64,000 nucleotides of DNA. It comes from an uncultured Opitutaceae bacterium. Its GTDB lineage: Bacteria; Verrucomicrobiota; Verrucomicrobiia; Opitutales; Opitutaceae. Within the stretch, counting starts at the first letter, position 1; each line of letters opens with the position of its first letter. A model generated the notes under the pieces. The model made no database searches, had not been told where the DNA came from, and saw nothing but the letters and a program-made list of their open reading frames with translations. This document shows, one piece after another, positions 53,146 through 60,062 of the stretch. The position numbers were made by a program, and so were the translations under genes. Location: contig CALFNN010000030.1 in NCBI GenBank assembly GCA_937902925.1, positions 1 through 64,000 of the forward strand, written 5' to 3'.

Positions 53146-54063
53146 ATGCTTCATCTTCGCTCCGTCACCAAGCGCTACGGTTCGCTGGTCGCGCTCGACG
53201 ACGTGTCGCTCGACATCGCCCGCGGTGAGTTCTTCGGCCTGCTCGGGCCGAACGGCGCCGGCAAGTCCACCCTGATGTCGCTCGTCGCCGGCCTGCGCGC
53301 GCCCGATTCCGGCACGCTCACGCTCGACGGCGCACCGCTCACCGCCGCCAACGCCGCCTCGCGCACGTCGCTCGGGCTCGTGCCCCAGCACATCGCGCTC
53401 TACCCCGAGCTTACCGCGCCCGAAAACCTCCGCATCTTCGGCGCGCTCTACGGCCTGCGCGGAGGCGACCTTCGCGCCCGCATCGACGCCGCCCTCGAGG
53501 CCGTGCAACTCGCCGACCGCCGCCGCGATGCCGTGAAGACGTTTTCCGGCGGCATGCAGCGCCGGCTCAACCTCGTCGCGGCCCTCCTCCACCGGCCCAA
53601 GCTCCTCCTCTGCGACGAGCCCACCGTCGGCGTCGATCCGCAATCCCGCCTCGCCATCTTCGAATACCTCGAGGCCCTCAACCGCGACGGGCTCACGATC
53701 ATCTACTCCACGCACTACATGGAGGAGGCCACGCGTCTCTGCTCGCGCATCGGCATCATCGACCACGGCCGGCTCCACGCCCTCGGCACGCTCGACGAAC
53801 TGCTCGCGCAACTGCCCTTCGAGGAGGAAATCCGCTTCCCCGCCACGCCCGCGACCGCCGCGCTCGCCGCCGACCTTCCGGTCCACGGCGAACTCGCCAC
53901 GGCAGACGCCATCCACCGTTTCCGCCCGCGCCCCGATTTCAAGCTCTCGGCCTTTTTCGGCGCCGCGGAGTCGCATGCGCTCCCCGGCCGCCTTTTTACC
54001 AGTCAGCGCCCCACCCTCGAAGCGCTCTTCCTCCACCTCACCGGCCGCACCCTCCGGGAGTAA
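53146..54063 (+). CDS. ABC transporter ATP-binding protein
   Basis: This 305-residue ATPase has Walker A GPNGAGKS (34-41), signature FSGGMQRRLN (near 131), Walker B LLLCDEPTVGVD (near 155) and the switch His in YSTHYMEEA. The C-terminal 80 residues form the extra domain common in ABC-2 exporter ATPases (DRA/NodI/CcmA type). ATG 53146 is used, although the frame is open upstream. It is paired with the permease 61 bases downstream. The region upstream (52967-53145) is divergent with the leftward pectin operon and holds both promoters. Confidence 0.92.
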   Translation: MLHLRSVTKRYGSLVALDDVSLDIARGEFFGLLGPNGAGKSTLMSLVAGLRAPDSGTLTLDGAPLTAANAASRTSLGLVPQHIALYPELTAPENLRIFGALYGLRGGDLRARIDAALEAVQLADRRRDAVKTFSGGMQRRLNLVAALLHRPKLLLCDEPTVGVDPQSRLAIFEYLEALNRDGLTIIYSTHYMEEATRLCSRIGIIDHGRLHALGTLDELLAQLPFEEEIRFPATPATAALAADLPVHGELATADAIHRFRPRPDFKLSAFFGAAESHALPGRLFTSQRPTLEALFLHLTGRTLRE

Positions 54064-54124: not shown

Positions 54125-55564
54125 ATGCGCTCCATCCTCGTTCTCCTCCGCAAGGATTTCACCAATTTCCTGCGCAACAAGGCGGCCGTTTCCCTCACGT
54201 TCCTCATCCCGTTCGTGATGATCTGGCTGTTCGGAATCATCTTCGGCGTGAACAAGAAGGACTCCGGCCCCAACGGCATTCCGCTCGCCGTCGTCAACGC
54301 CAGCGACAACCCCGCCGCGCAGAAACTCGTCGACGCCCTGAAGACCGAGAAAAGTTTCCGCGTCATCACCGAGTTCGTCAGTCCCGACAAATCCCGGCGC
54401 CCCCTCACCGAGGCCGATCTCCGCCCGCTGATGCAGGCACCCGACGCCCCCTTCCGCTTCGCCCTCGTCATCCCACCCGATCTCGTGCGCACGAAGGATT
54501 TCGGGCTGCACCTGAAAATCTTCTCCAACCCGCGCAACGAGATCGAAACGCAGACCGTGAACGGCATCCTGCAGAAGACGATTTTTACCAATGTTCCCCA
54601 GCTCCTCGGCGAATCCCTGCAGGCCAGCGCGAAGGACTATCTCGGCAGTCCCGCCTTCAAACAGTTCAACGGCACGATCGCCGGCGCCGTCGCCGACGCC
54701 TTCGGTGGCGACAAGGAGAAAATCCAGCAGCGGATCGAGGCGGGCGATTTCGGCCTCGGCCGCGTCATCGGCCCGGCCAAGCCCGCCGATCCCTCGCTCC
54801 GCCGCCTCGATAACAACCCCACGCCCGCGCCGGCGGGCTCGGCCCAATCGACCAGCGCGTCCGCGGCCCCCGCCCCTGCGGCCTCCAACGCCGCCGCCGA
54901 CACCCTCGCCCGCATCGTCCGCCTCGAAACCGTTCAGGTCGTCGGCGCCAACGTGAAGAGTCCCGCCGCCACCAGCATCGTCGGCGGCTGGGCGATTCAG
55001 TTCCTGCTGTTCGCCCTTAGCGCCTCCGCCACGAGCCTTTTCCGCGAGCGCGACGCCGGCCTCTTCCAGCGGCTGCTCGCCTCGCCGGTCACCCGCGCCC
55101 AGATCCTTTGGAGCAAATTCCTCTACGGCGTCTGCCTTGGCATCATCCAACTCATGGTGCTGTTCTTCGCCGGCCGCGTGCTCTTCGGCATCGAGATCGA
55201 GCGCCACGTCGGCCTGCTCTTGATCGTCTGCACCTTCGCCGCATCCGCGTGCACCTCCTTCGGCATGCTCCTCGCCGCCATCGCGCCGAACGCCGAGGCC
55301 GCTCAGGGTCTCGCGACGTTTCTGATCATGATGATGAGCTCCCTCGGCGGCGCGTGGTTCCCCATCACGCTCATGCCCGTGTTCATCCAGCAATTCAGCA
55401 AGCTCACCCTCGTCTATTGGTCGATGGAGGGCTTCAGCTCCGTGCTGTGGGCCGGCCAGTCGTTCCTCCAAATTCTTCCCATCCTCGGCATCCTTGCCGG
55501 CATCACCGCGGTCGTCATGAGCATCGCCATCTGGCGGTTCAACCGCGGCCGGATTTTCGAGTGA
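54125..55564 (+). CDS. ABC-2 type transporter permease
   Basis: This 479-residue permease has one N-terminal transmembrane helix (about 20-39, VSLTFLIPFVMIWLFGIIFG) and a large extracytoplasmic region of about 240 residues including a Pro/Ala/Ser-rich linker near 235-260. Five or six helices at the C-terminus carry the ABC-2 core: SLFRERDAGLFQRLLASPVTRAQIL, then GLATFLIMMMSSLGGAWFPI. This is the layout of NatB/YhfH-type exporters. With the upstream ATPase it should form a homodimeric exporter. Substrate unknown. TTCAACTTTCAACT lies at 54090-54103 just before the start. Confidence 0.9.
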   Translation: MRSILVLLRKDFTNFLRNKAAVSLTFLIPFVMIWLFGIIFGVNKKDSGPNGIPLAVVNASDNPAAQKLVDALKTEKSFRVITEFVSPDKSRRPLTEADLRPLMQAPDAPFRFALVIPPDLVRTKDFGLHLKIFSNPRNEIETQTVNGILQKTIFTNVPQLLGESLQASAKDYLGSPAFKQFNGTIAGAVADAFGGDKEKIQQRIEAGDFGLGRVIGPAKPADPSLRRLDNNPTPAPAGSAQSTSASAAPAPAASNAAADTLARIVRLETVQVVGANVKSPAATSIVGGWAIQFLLFALSASATSLFRERDAGLFQRLLASPVTRAQILWSKFLYGVCLGIIQLMVLFFAGRVLFGIEIERHVGLLLIVCTFAASACTSFGMLLAAIAPNAEAAQGLATFLIMMMSSLGGAWFPITLMPVFIQQFSKLTLVYWSMEGFSSVLWAGQSFLQILPILGILAGITAVVMSIAIWRFNRGRIFE

Positions 55565-55598
55565 CAACGTTGCGCAAACTCGCCGCGATGTCGGGCGT

Positions 55599-57857
55599 TT
55601 GAACCGGCCCATCTACGCCTCGCCCCGCTTTGGCCTGCTCGTCGCCATCGCCGTGCTGCTCGGTGCATTCGTGTTGGAAGCGATCGGCACGACGGCGGCG
55701 GGCGTGATCTATGGCATCGGCGTCGTTTACGGATCCCACGCGTGGGCTGGCGCCAATTCGGGCACGGCGGCGGTGCTCACGATGATCGGCAAGCTGACGG
55801 GCGCCGTCACCATTGCTGCGCTGGTCCTGCACCGCTCGCGCGAATCGTGGCGCAGCGTGGGGCGCGCCGGCTTCACCCCGGTCACCCTCGTCGTGCTGTT
55901 CGTGCCGATTGTCGCCGGCATCACGATCGTCCTGTCGGAACTGGACAACCTGCTGCGCGCCTTCTTGCCGGCGCGCGTCGAGCCGTTCTGGAACCTCGCC
56001 CCGACCTTGAATGCCACGCTGGCGTTTTCGTGGACCGGCCCGCTCCTCGCCATCGTCGTCGGCCCGGTGTGCGAAGAACTGGTTTTTCGCGGCCTGGTCC
56101 TGCGCGGCCTGCTCGGTCGCTACCGGCCGTGGACCGCGGTCGTTGTCTCGGCGGCGTCGTTCGCAGCGATGCATCTCAACCCCGCGCAGATGCCGATCGC
56201 CCTCGGGCTCGGCGCCTTGCTGGGGTGGATTTATATGCGCACCCGCTCGCTCGGCCTGTGTGTCCTCGGCCACGCGCTCAACAACTCGGCCAGTTACGTC
56301 GTCGGGTTCGTGCCGTTCGAGATCGACGGTTTCAACCGTGTGCCCGAGGTCGCGGGCAATGTCTTTCAACCGTGGTGGTTCGACGGCATCGGGTTCGCCC
56401 TGATCGCTGCCGGCATCTGGTTCATTCATCGCCTCGCGCCCGCCGCCGAACCGTGGGCGGTGGCGCCGTCGCCCGAGCCGCCTCCGCTGGAGCCGCCGCT
56501 CCTTGAACCTCCGCTCCTGTCACCCGCCCCGACTGCAAATGACGGTTGTCAGCCCGCAATTCCTGAGGATGCTTCGGCTTTCATGTCCGCCGATCTCGCT
56601 CGTCTCGTCACGTCCCTCGCCCAGCGCGCCCGCGCTGCGTCGCTCGTGCTCGCCACGGTGCCGACGGCCGCCAAGAACGCCGCGCTGGCGAAACTCGCCG
56701 ACCTGATCGACGCCTCCCACGCCGCGCTCCTCGCAGCCAACGCCCGCGACCTCGCCTCGCCCGAGGCCGCCGCCCTCGCGCCCGCTGCGCGCGACCGCCT
56801 GAAGGTCGACCCGGCCCGCCTGCAGCATCTCGCCGCGTCAGTGCGCGACGTCATCGCGCTCCCCGATCCCGTCGGCGCCGAACTCGAGGCGTGGACGCGC
56901 CCCAACGGCCTCCGCATCCGCAAGGTCCGCGTGCCCATCGGCGTCATCGGCATCATCTACGAGTCGCGCCCCAACGTCACCGTCGACTGCGCCATCCTCT
57001 GCCTGAAGAGCGGCAACGCCGCCATTCTCCGCGGCGGCAAGGAGAGTTTCCACACCAACACCGCTCTCGCCGCGCTCATCGCGCAGGCGCTCACCGCGAC
57101 CGGCCTGCCCCCGGATGCCGTCCAGCTCATCCCCACCACGGATCGCGCCGCGCTCACCACGCTGCTCAAGCTCGACACGCTCGTCCACTGCATCATCCCC
57201 CGCGGCGGCGAGAGCCTCATCCGCTACGTCGCGCAGAACTCCACCATCCCGGTCATCAAGCATTACAAGGGCGTGTGCTTCGTCTACGTCGACCAAGCCG
57301 CCGACCTCGCGATGGCGGAGCAGATCACCGTCAACGCCAAGACCTCGAAGCCCAGCGTCTGCAACGCCGCCGAGCAACTCCTCGTCCATCGCGACGTCGC
57401 CGAAAAATTCCTGCCCGCCGTCGCCCGCGCGCTCACCGCGAAGAACGTCCAGCTCCGCTGCGACGCCGCCAGCGCCGCCCTCCTCGCCCGGGAAAGCATC
57501 GCCACCACGCCCGCGACCGATGCCGACTACTCGGCGGAATTCCTCGACTACATCATCGCCGTCCGCGTGGTCGATTCGCTCGACGCCGCCATCGCCACGA
57601 TCAACCGCGACAGCTCCAATCACAGCGACGCCATCGTGACCGCCGACGAAACCGCCGCGCGCCGCTTCCTCGCCGAGATCGACAGCGCCACCGTGTTCTG
57701 GAACGCGAGCACACGCTTCGACGACGGTTTCGAGTTCGGCTTCGGCGCCGAGATCGGCATCAGCACGGATCGGCTCCACGCCCGCGGCCCGATGGGCCTG
57801 CCCGAACTCTGCTCCTACAAGTATCTCATCGAGGGCACCGGACAGGTTCGGGGTTGA
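55599..57857 (+). CDS. proA: CPBP intramembrane protease fused in frame to gamma-glutamyl phosphate reductase ProA
   Basis: One uninterrupted 752-residue frame. Residues about 1-290 form a multi-helix CPBP (CAAX protease/bacteriocin-processing) domain with the EExxxR motif at Glu159-Glu160..Arg164 (CEELVFRG), AAMHLNP and GHALNNSA as the histidine motifs. A proline-rich linker with PPLLEPPLL repeats spans about 295-315. From Met329 (ATG 56583) a complete ProA follows, with ESRPNVTVDCAILCLKSGNAAI, IPRGGESLIRYV, catalytic Cys588 in KPSVCNAAEQ and the ELCSYKYLIEGTGQ ending. ProA reduces gamma-glutamyl phosphate in proline synthesis. Either ProA is membrane-tethered, or internal initiation at 56583 gives normal 424-residue ProA. 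TGA codons at 56540 and 56564, two bases out of frame, hint that a small indel may have joined two genes. Confidence 0.85.
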   Translation: MNRPIYASPRFGLLVAIAVLLGAFVLEAIGTTAAGVIYGIGVVYGSHAWAGANSGTAAVLTMIGKLTGAVTIAALVLHRSRESWRSVGRAGFTPVTLVVLFVPIVAGITIVLSELDNLLRAFLPARVEPFWNLAPTLNATLAFSWTGPLLAIVVGPVCEELVFRGLVLRGLLGRYRPWTAVVVSAASFAAMHLNPAQMPIALGLGALLGWIYMRTRSLGLCVLGHALNNSASYVVGFVPFEIDGFNRVPEVAGNVFQPWWFDGIGFALIAAGIWFIHRLAPAAEPWAVAPSPEPPPLEPPLLEPPLLSPAPTANDGCQPAIPEDASAFMSADLARLVTSLAQRARAASLVLATVPTAAKNAALAKLADLIDASHAALLAANARDLASPEAAALAPAARDRLKVDPARLQHLAASVRDVIALPDPVGAELEAWTRPNGLRIRKVRVPIGVIGIIYESRPNVTVDCAILCLKSGNAAILRGGKESFHTNTALAALIAQALTATGLPPDAVQLIPTTDRAALTTLLKLDTLVHCIIPRGGESLIRYVAQNSTIPVIKHYKGVCFVYVDQAADLAMAEQITVNAKTSKPSVCNAAEQLLVHRDVAEKFLPAVARALTAKNVQLRCDAASAALLARESIATTPATDADYSAEFLDYIIAVRVVDSLDAAIATINRDSSNHSDAIVTADETAARRFLAEIDSATVFWNASTRFDDGFEFGFGAEIGISTDRLHARGPMGLPELCSYKYLIEGTGQVRG

Positions 57858-57902
57858 AGCGGCCGGCCGTTGGTGATTTCAACGGCGGTCCATTCAACTC
57901 CG

Positions 57903-60062
57903 ATGTTTTCCTCCCCGTCGTCCACGCGGCTGAAGATCGTTGGCACCGAGGGCCATTCCCCGGAGAGCCTGCGCCAGGAAGTCGACCGCGGCGCGCGGTT
58001 CGTGATCTACAGCTACAACGTCTCGCTGCTCGTCGTCAGCTTCAAGCGCCCGACGGACATCTACTTCATCCGCCCGGGGGAGAGCCGCATCCTCAAGGCC
58101 CTGCCGTTCACGCTGATTTCGCTCGTGTGCGGCTGGTGGGGCATTCCGTGGGGCATCATCTACACGTTTCAATCGCTCCACCAGAATCTCACCGGCGGCA
58201 AGGACGTGACCGAGTCGCTCCTCGCGACACTTAACCCGCCACCCGTCGCGCCGGGCGAAGCCGCCCCGCCCGCCCCGCCGCCGCCTCCGCCGCGAAAACC
58301 CGTTTCGCCGCGCCGCGTCTTCGCCACGATCGGCGTCGTCGCTGCGGTTGCCGCCATCGTCTACCCGTGCGTCTGCTACTTTTACGGGCAGAATCTTTCT
58401 GTCGCGCTGATCTCTGGCCTCAAGGCTCCCTATTCCGTCGAGCTCAACGGCACCGCCCACCAGCTCCGGCCCGGCCACCCTGAAGTGGTGACGCTCGCCG
58501 AGGGCGACTTCGTTCTCCGCGGCGCGCCCGGTGCGAAGGACGAGCAGCACTTCACCGCCGAAACGAGTTTCTTTTCCCGGCCGTTCGACCGCCACGTCCT
58601 CGTGGTCAATCCCGACCGCACCGCCGTCGTTTACCGGGAGACGATCGCCTATCATCCGACCGGCGCCACGGCCGACCCGAACGAAAAAGCCACCTTCGAT
58701 CTCCACGCCAATCAACTTTCGTATTTCCTCCCGGAGCCGGACTACTTCATCGAGGAATTTCCGAAGACCATTTCGATGCCGTCCGACTCCAGCGCGGTCA
58801 GCAAAACCCGCATCGCGGCGCTGGAAGACCTGCCGCTCGAGCAAACGACATCGCTGCTCACCGAAAAGCTCGGCTACGATGCCACCCGCAATTTTCTCGC
58901 CAACCAGGCCCGCGTCGACCCCGAGAACGAACGCCTCCAGCGCCTCGTCATTTCCGTGCTCAAGCCCGCTGACTGCCGCGCCCTCCTCGAGTCGCACCTG
59001 GCGGACCGCCCGCTGCTGGTCGAATGGCACCGCGCCTACCAGTATTTCATGGACCGGAGTTTCCCGGCCGTGGACCTCGCCACCAGCTACCGCCAGCAGA
59101 TGGAGACCGATCCCGGGGACGGCACCTTGATTTACCTCTACGCCCGGTTGTTGCTCAACCCCGCCGAGGCCGCCCCGTTTTACGCGCGGGCCTTGCACGT
59201 CCAGCATCCGAGTTTCTATGCGGCCTATGCGCTCGGCTTCGACGCGTTTGTCGCCGGGCACTATGCCGCCAGTCTCGATTTCATCGAGCGCGCCAAACGC
59301 GGCGGCGTGAATGTCGAAGCCCTTCGCCTCTGCGAACGCGACGACCTCCTCGCCCTCGGCCGGAAGGCCGACGCCCTGGCGAACGTCCGGGAGCTCCGTC
59401 GCAAGGATCCCGCCGACAGTGAACTCTGCGCGGACGAACTGCTGCTCACGCAAAGCCAGGCGCCCGACCGCGTGGGCGGGCAGCGCGCCATCGCCGCATT
59501 TGTCGCCACGCTGCGCAGCCGGTTCGGGGCCGGCGACTATTCGGCCGTGGAAGGTTATCTCAACGCCCGCCTGAGCTACGGGCTCGGCGAGGAACGCGAA
59601 GCCGCCGGCTTCAGCGCGAAGCTCCAGGGCCCGATGAACCAGTTCGAATCCGCCGTCGCCCGCCGCGATCACGCCGCCGCCGCCAAGGCGCTCGCCCCGG
59701 TGCCGGAGCTGCCGTCGCACTACAGCTGGCTCCTGATGTTGACCGCCCACGCCGCCGGCGACACCGCGGCGGCCGACGGCTACTTCAAGCAGGCCGTCGC
59801 CCGCCTCGCCGCCGAGGACAAATCCTCGCGCGCCGCGGCCCGGCACATCGCCGGCGGCTCCGCGGCGGATCACGCCGCGCTGCTGCTGACACCGAACTAC
59901 GCGGAGGAGCTGCGCATCCTCTTCACCGCGCTCGGCGTCCGCTTCCCCGCGCAACGCGAAGCCTATTTCGCCCGCGCCCGCGAGCTCGACCACGACCCGT
60001 CGTTCCCGCACCTCCTGCTCACCGCCGTCCGCAAGGATCCAGTATCTGGGTCGAAGCTCTGA
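57903..60062 (+). CDS. Large membrane protein with TPR-like helical region, function unknown
   Basis: The protein has 719 residues. The N-terminal domain (about 1-110) includes a long hydrophobic stretch near 67-95 (LPFTLISLVCGWWGIPWGII). It then has a Pro/Ala linker (residues about 110-135, PPAPPPPPP), a second transmembrane helix near 142-162 (VFATIGVVAAVAAIVYPCVCY), a beta-rich segment and about 450 residues of helical repeats of TPR/Sel1-like character. I recognise no enzyme motif. ATG 57903 (MFSSPSSTRLK) lies 45 bases after the ProA stop. The last few codons overlap a remnant on the other strand, so the original C-terminus may have been altered. Confidence 0.6.
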   Translation: MFSSPSSTRLKIVGTEGHSPESLRQEVDRGARFVIYSYNVSLLVVSFKRPTDIYFIRPGESRILKALPFTLISLVCGWWGIPWGIIYTFQSLHQNLTGGKDVTESLLATLNPPPVAPGEAAPPAPPPPPPRKPVSPRRVFATIGVVAAVAAIVYPCVCYFYGQNLSVALISGLKAPYSVELNGTAHQLRPGHPEVVTLAEGDFVLRGAPGAKDEQHFTAETSFFSRPFDRHVLVVNPDRTAVVYRETIAYHPTGATADPNEKATFDLHANQLSYFLPEPDYFIEEFPKTISMPSDSSAVSKTRIAALEDLPLEQTTSLLTEKLGYDATRNFLANQARVDPENERLQRLVISVLKPADCRALLESHLADRPLLVEWHRAYQYFMDRSFPAVDLATSYRQQMETDPGDGTLIYLYARLLLNPAEAAPFYARALHVQHPSFYAAYALGFDAFVAGHYAASLDFIERAKRGGVNVEALRLCERDDLLALGRKADALANVRELRRKDPADSELCADELLLTQSQAPDRVGGQRAIAAFVATLRSRFGAGDYSAVEGYLNARLSYGLGEEREAAGFSAKLQGPMNQFESAVARRDHAAAAKALAPVPELPSHYSWLLMLTAHAAGDTAAADGYFKQAVARLAAEDKSSRAAARHIAGGSAADHAALLLTPNYAEELRILFTALGVRFPAQREAYFARARELDHDPSFPHLLLTAVRKDPVSGSKL

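Follow-up and report, generated by a model that had tools for sequence, protein, structure and literature searches.

An in-frame fusion of a CPBP membrane protease to ProA in Opitutaceae, with a candidate promoter for free ProA inside the linker

Membrane proteases of the CPBP or Rce1-like family (PF02517) are recognized by three motifs, which we take to be EExxxR, FxxxH and HxxxN, and we know of no member that carries a biosynthetic enzyme at its C-terminus. A CPBP–ProA fusion was not found among the matches listed in the literature that we searched. In the ABC permease/CPBP fusions represented by NF041647, the CPBP domain is tied to an ABC-2 type permease. In P5CS, the eukaryotic ProB–ProA fusion, ProA is the C-terminal partner (excerpted text of PMC11061531). 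Caulobacter ftsW, as presented in an excerpt of PMC4117421, gives long and short proteins from one frame through two messages, as shown there by RNA and ribosome mapping, in a bacterium in which leaderless messages are common.

Here we describe a gene that lies within the window, the whole stretch of 64,000 nucleotides of an uncultured Opitutaceae genome that was analysed, and that reads through a CPBP domain, a proline-rich linker and ProA on the + strand (55599..57857). The open frame extends from a TTG at 55599 to a stop ending at 57857, giving 752 codons, and the same architecture is present in 33 other genomes of the family, in most of which a GTG, TTG or ATG is aligned with this start. 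The original prediction of a CPBP domain with all its motifs, followed by a complete ProA, is borne out for both halves. The protease half (55599..56450, +, approximately residues 1–284) matches the Pfam Rce1-like family at residues 147–230 (E 4e-21, 75.5 bits against a cut-off of 22.4), and its seven motif residues, E159, E160 and R164, F188 and H192, and H225 and N229, are kept in all 34 fused genomes, as expected for a candidate active membrane protease. The ProA half (56583..57857, +) gives a full-length match to the NCBIfam glutamate-5-semialdehyde dehydrogenase (proA) at residues 335–751 (E 5e-175, 582 bits), well above the curated cut-off of 289; the TIGR00407 cut-off is exceeded in 34 of 34 fused genomes, including G107 and G133, where the copies are incomplete. 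C588, which is presumably the active-site cysteine of ProA, is kept in 33 of the 34, the remaining case being an alignment gap. The gene thus shares family and motif residues with other CPBP proteases but has a biosynthetic enzyme added at the C-terminus. It differs from the NF041647 proteins (85 bits against a cut-off of 435) in that the permease is encoded by a neighbouring gene and the fused partner is ProA; as in P5CS, ProA is C-terminal, but a protease takes the place of glutamate 5-kinase (P5CS model score 333 against a cut-off of 797; the Pfam scan gave no kinase domain).

The predicted structure of the fused protein (mean pLDDT 79.5, pTM 0.43) has long helices as far as residue 279, very low confidence in the linker at about residues 290–329, and a folded ProA, matched best by bacterial ProA enzymes of solved structure at 43–48% identity. 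The protease fold was absent from the best 50 of 975 fold matches, all of which lay on the dehydrogenase side, and its assignment therefore rests on sequence and predicted helices. ProA needs NADPH, and basic residues, which mark the cytosolic side, follow the last helix; on these grounds ProA most likely lies on the cytosolic side of the membrane.

The original prediction had also drawn attention to TGA triplets at 56540 and 56564 in the repetitive linker DNA, and had asked whether a sequencing error, an indel, had joined two genes. Both triplets are present and both are out of frame, but as traces of an indel they carry no weight: in a contig scan of 47 loci, 16 had both domains, and together with the locus of the window and L002 all 18 had them in the same frame with no stop between, a pattern subsequently extended to 34 genomes. 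Because the identical in-frame architecture recurs in 33 other genomes, from assemblies of several projects, a sequencing or assembly error is refuted for the group and is virtually out of the question, and the frame at 55599–57857 is strongly supported as a genuine fusion. An open frame alone would be weak proof, since long chance frames upstream of proA occur in GC-rich genomes. Such frames, of 686–1376 codons, precede unfused proA in L126, L134, L135, L136, L137 and L138, and a comparison limited to the window's CPBP, ProA, ABC ATPase, permease and downstream protein gave no in-frame match upstream of ProA in them. In L126, L134, L135 and L136 the unfused proA itself lies within a chance frame of 804–1376 codons, a trap for fusion calling in GC-rich genomes. 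For the window, a chance open frame is ruled out by in-frame homology of both halves.

The census covered 252 genomes of the window's family, by the matches listed for a full-protein search and by a CPBP alignment (E up to 1e-24). The CPBP subfamily was found in 48 of them and was fused to ProA in 34 (one in g1, 17 in g7, nine in g26, one in g62 and six in g21). Some of these are imperfect: contig ends truncate G101 and G107, the CPBP half of G062 contains a TAA, and ProA of G133, close to the end of its contig, is broken by two stops. A phylum-level sample of 387 genomes, family members included, contained the subfamily in 11 and the fusion in two, G000 and G025. Linker length in the fused genomes ranges from 27 to 51 codons. 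In the 14 genomes with an unfused member of the subfamily, the CPBP gene adjoins proA in G057, precedes the cluster ATPase in G197, and has no proA in the stretch examined in the other 12. In the short (3.5 kb) contig of G115 (L180), a partial second CPBP copy, approximately residues 5–181, lies at 482–1012.

In the CPBP tree, one clade (94/97), hereafter the main clade, unites 28 fused rows, and the six fused rows of g21 fall in another, which includes the unfused G057 (100/100). On the ProA tree (33 fused and 42 unfused rows) the fused state needs eight changes, at least five of them on well-supported branches, so that it must have been gained, lost or transferred more than once.

Upstream of the fusion in the window lie genes for an ABC transporter ATPase (53146..54063, +; Pfam ABC_tran) and an ABC-2 type permease (54125..55564, +; Pfam ABC2_membrane_3 and synteny), the latter ending 34 bases before the protease start. 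This pair, or the permease only at contig ends, precedes the fusion in the window, G105, G159, G111, G058, G060 and G063; many main-clade fusions have no ABC pair in the stretches examined. The pair, and its ATPase, also lie close upstream of unfused proA, for example in L046, L053, L060, L126, L127, L134, L142 and L144. The gene that follows the fusion (57870–60062, 730 codons) had no match in the Pfam and NCBIfam scans. Genome G057, the only one in which CPBP and proA are adjacent yet separate, has the order ATPase–permease–CPBP–proA, with the CPBP gene ending 46 nt before proA in a different frame. The stop between the domains that had been proposed as a sign of error was therefore seen once, in G057, where it reflects a separate arrangement and casts no doubt on the fused genomes.

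Because of this gene order, and because several stand-alone CPBP proteins of the subfamily have proline-rich tails of their own, the linker (56451..56582, +; 44 codons from residue 285) most plausibly consists of a CPBP tail followed by an old proA leader. We propose that the CPBP gene belonged to an ABC-exporter cluster (ATPase, permease, CPBP) and was the immediate upstream neighbour of proA, an order that G057 still has. Loss of the CPBP stop codon would then have let the proline-rich tail read through the old proA leader into ProA.

We judge it most likely, with a probability of about 0.6, that such a gene would have two products, a membrane-tethered CPBP–ProA and a free ProA. Full-length translation would give a membrane protease that carries ProA. 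Free ProA would begin at the internal ATG at 56583, which is present in 34 of 34 fused genomes (displaced by three codons in G058). The ProA half exceeds the 424 residues of the window's by about 50 in G121 (L125) and by about 20 in several g26 genomes (L033 and L042 among the loci). No second complete proA was found in any fused genome; in G107, G121 and G133 proA lies in two pieces, which in G133 overlap in profile, so that a second copy is possible there. In the window's genome the fused gene is the only proA found and proB lies on another contig, and ProA activity should therefore come from the fused gene.

In 34 fused genomes the linker takes 14 different lengths, which differ by whole codons. 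The main clade requires a minimum of 13 length changes and g21 a minimum of three, hence at least 16, every one in frame; random indel lengths would give a probability of about 6e-7 for the 13 main-clade changes, although repeated proline codons could themselves favour multiples of three. Linker amino acids are held loosely, with 7.4 changes per codon where ProA has 2.1. This looseness, the patchy occurrence on the ProA tree with its at least five changes, and the retention of a promoter-like element for proA (see below) would suit a near-neutral fusion in which ProA is a harmless passenger on CPBP and free ProA does the work. A passenger would not, however, require every length change to be in frame, and a stop in the linker would be free of cost, yet none is found in the 34 genomes, which is weak evidence by itself (0.014). 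We regard this explanation as unlikely.

Another reading, raised in the original prediction, is regulated release, in which the CPBP half would cut the linker or a neighbouring segment and so free ProA. The catalytic residues are kept in 34 of 34 and the linker is predicted to be flexible, which would favour it; nevertheless, no cleavage motif common to both clades was seen, and CPBP-type proteases usually cut within or near the membrane. The linker does have a conserved Cys codon, in 27 of the 28 main-clade genomes, but this codon coincides with the TTG element described below and is missing from most g21 linkers. The Cys was also considered as a cleavage or lipid site and set aside, given that overlap and given that the codon before it keeps T as its third base although the amino acid differs between genomes. 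Nothing specific supports release by the protease half; what is conserved in the linker lies at the DNA level and resembles a promoter, and we consider such release highly improbable.

That feature comprises a −35-like TTGTCA (56546..56551, +), at −37 to −32 from the internal ATG, and, 16 bases after it, a −10-like GATGCT (56568..56573, +), at −15 to −10, which in the window has three of the six consensus bases. Set against the sigma-70 consensus, the linker fits TTGNCN, 16 bases and NANNNT, a placement that would start transcription at about the ATG. When the main clade is aligned on the ProA ATG, its bases are conserved at T−37 (28/28), T−36 (27/28), G−35 (28/28), A−14 (28/28) and T−10 (28/28), and parsimony on the CPBP tree requires a single change at −36 and none at −37, −35, −14 and −10. 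Two of these bases stand at third codon positions. Codons −13 and −4 have undergone 10 and eight amino-acid changes, respectively, and no third-base change in either, against a mean of 6.3 third-base changes over the 20 codons before the ATG; in all 45 ProA codons at which at least five residues occur the third base has changed, and only about 7% of ProA codons end in T. When the alignment is gapped, codon −4 is the sole codon of 150 with at least eight amino-acid changes to lack a third-base change, and at codon −13 a single genome departs from T (27 T, 1 A); ProA codons 578 and 644, with seven and six amino-acid changes, also lack one.

The pattern TTGNNN-N16..18-NANNNT, which was picked after viewing the alignment, occurs in 28 of 28 main-clade leaders (shuffled mean 0.12) and in nine of 41 chosen unfused leaders, that of G057 among them (shuffled mean 0.55). 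It is absent from the other 32 unfused proA leaders and from all six g21 fusions (shuffled mean 0.05), and for the g21 clade the promoter part of our proposal is therefore not claimed. On these sequence comparisons, the linker element looks like an old proA promoter, a candidate caught inside a reading frame, which would give a leaderless message.

The alternative is that only the fused protein is made, ProA working solely within it at the membrane, and that the conserved bases of the linker have some other function, for instance in a regulator site or an RNA feature. It accords with the continuous frame in 34 genomes, the lack of a second complete proA among those found, the g21 fusions without the pattern, and a strict E. 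coli-type sigma-70 scan that returned no promoter at 55400–58100, a result that also counts against the promoter reading. It is hard to square with third codon bases that do not vary and are spaced as in a promoter, or with the retention of the internal ATG in all 34 genomes, and we consider it unlikely.

To judge whether leaderless transcription is plausible here, we examined 218 gene models, namely those with a relative in another family locus, with near-copies and ProA/CPBP removed. TTG starts at −36 in 12 of them and at −35 in 17, against 2.8 per position elsewhere, the position range for this excess having been set after a first look; with one gene per family (58 genes) the counts are none at −36 and seven at −35, against 0.6. 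TTG-N16..18-NANNNT precedes 15 of the 218 starts (shuffled mean 2.0, maximum 7), and TANNNT showed no peak before other genes of the family loci. The excess of TTG 35–36 bases before other genes may be a sign that leaderless messages are widespread in these bacteria. Shine–Dalgarno-like words are no more frequent before the internal ATG or proA than in shuffled sequence: they occur in two of 28 main-clade genomes (shuffled mean 1.3), in none of six in g21 and in one of 41 unfused genomes. We take Verrucomicrobia bacterium IMCC26134 to be close to the Opitutaceae. It appears among the SD-scarce organisms of a survey, in the portion of PMC10783764 that was consulted.

In the two-product reading, then, the main clade would have kept the proA promoter inside the linker, and a leaderless message starting at or next to the internal ATG would give free ProA. 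Given the promoter-like conservation of the linker DNA, free ProA is more likely to come from its own message than from cleavage. Genome G062, which has an in-frame TAA within the CPBP half, counts against two products. Main-clade loci (L034, L125, L121 and others) share a conserved DNA block, a T run followed by CTGACGCCCCG, which lies approximately 45 to 25 bases ahead of the start of CPBP and is present even in loci with no ABC pair found upstream. This block may act as promoter for the long form, or it may be what is left of the permease 3′ end. The proposal resembles the Caulobacter ftsW case in its logic; ours comes from sequence, however, and the two products would differ in function.

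The suggestion that ProA is tethered to the membrane stands for any full-length product, there being no stop between the halves, while the benefit of such a tether is conjecture. According to the title of 8zok, E. coli ProA is tetrameric; mixed tetramers of tethered and free subunits could therefore form, which would place part of the enzyme at the membrane in a ratio set by two promoters. A fuller version, in which tethered ProA from an upstream promoter and free ProA from the leaderless linker promoter both work and as a pair set proline synthesis at the membrane beside the ABC exporter, is one that we put forward tentatively, at clearly less than even odds.

A membrane protease and a housekeeping biosynthetic enzyme have thus been kept as one frame in several lineages of this family, in which a promoter seemingly dictates the letters of a protein linker. 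The fusion offers a clean way to ask why a membrane protease should carry an enzyme of proline synthesis, and annotation will give one 752-residue protein where cells may make two.
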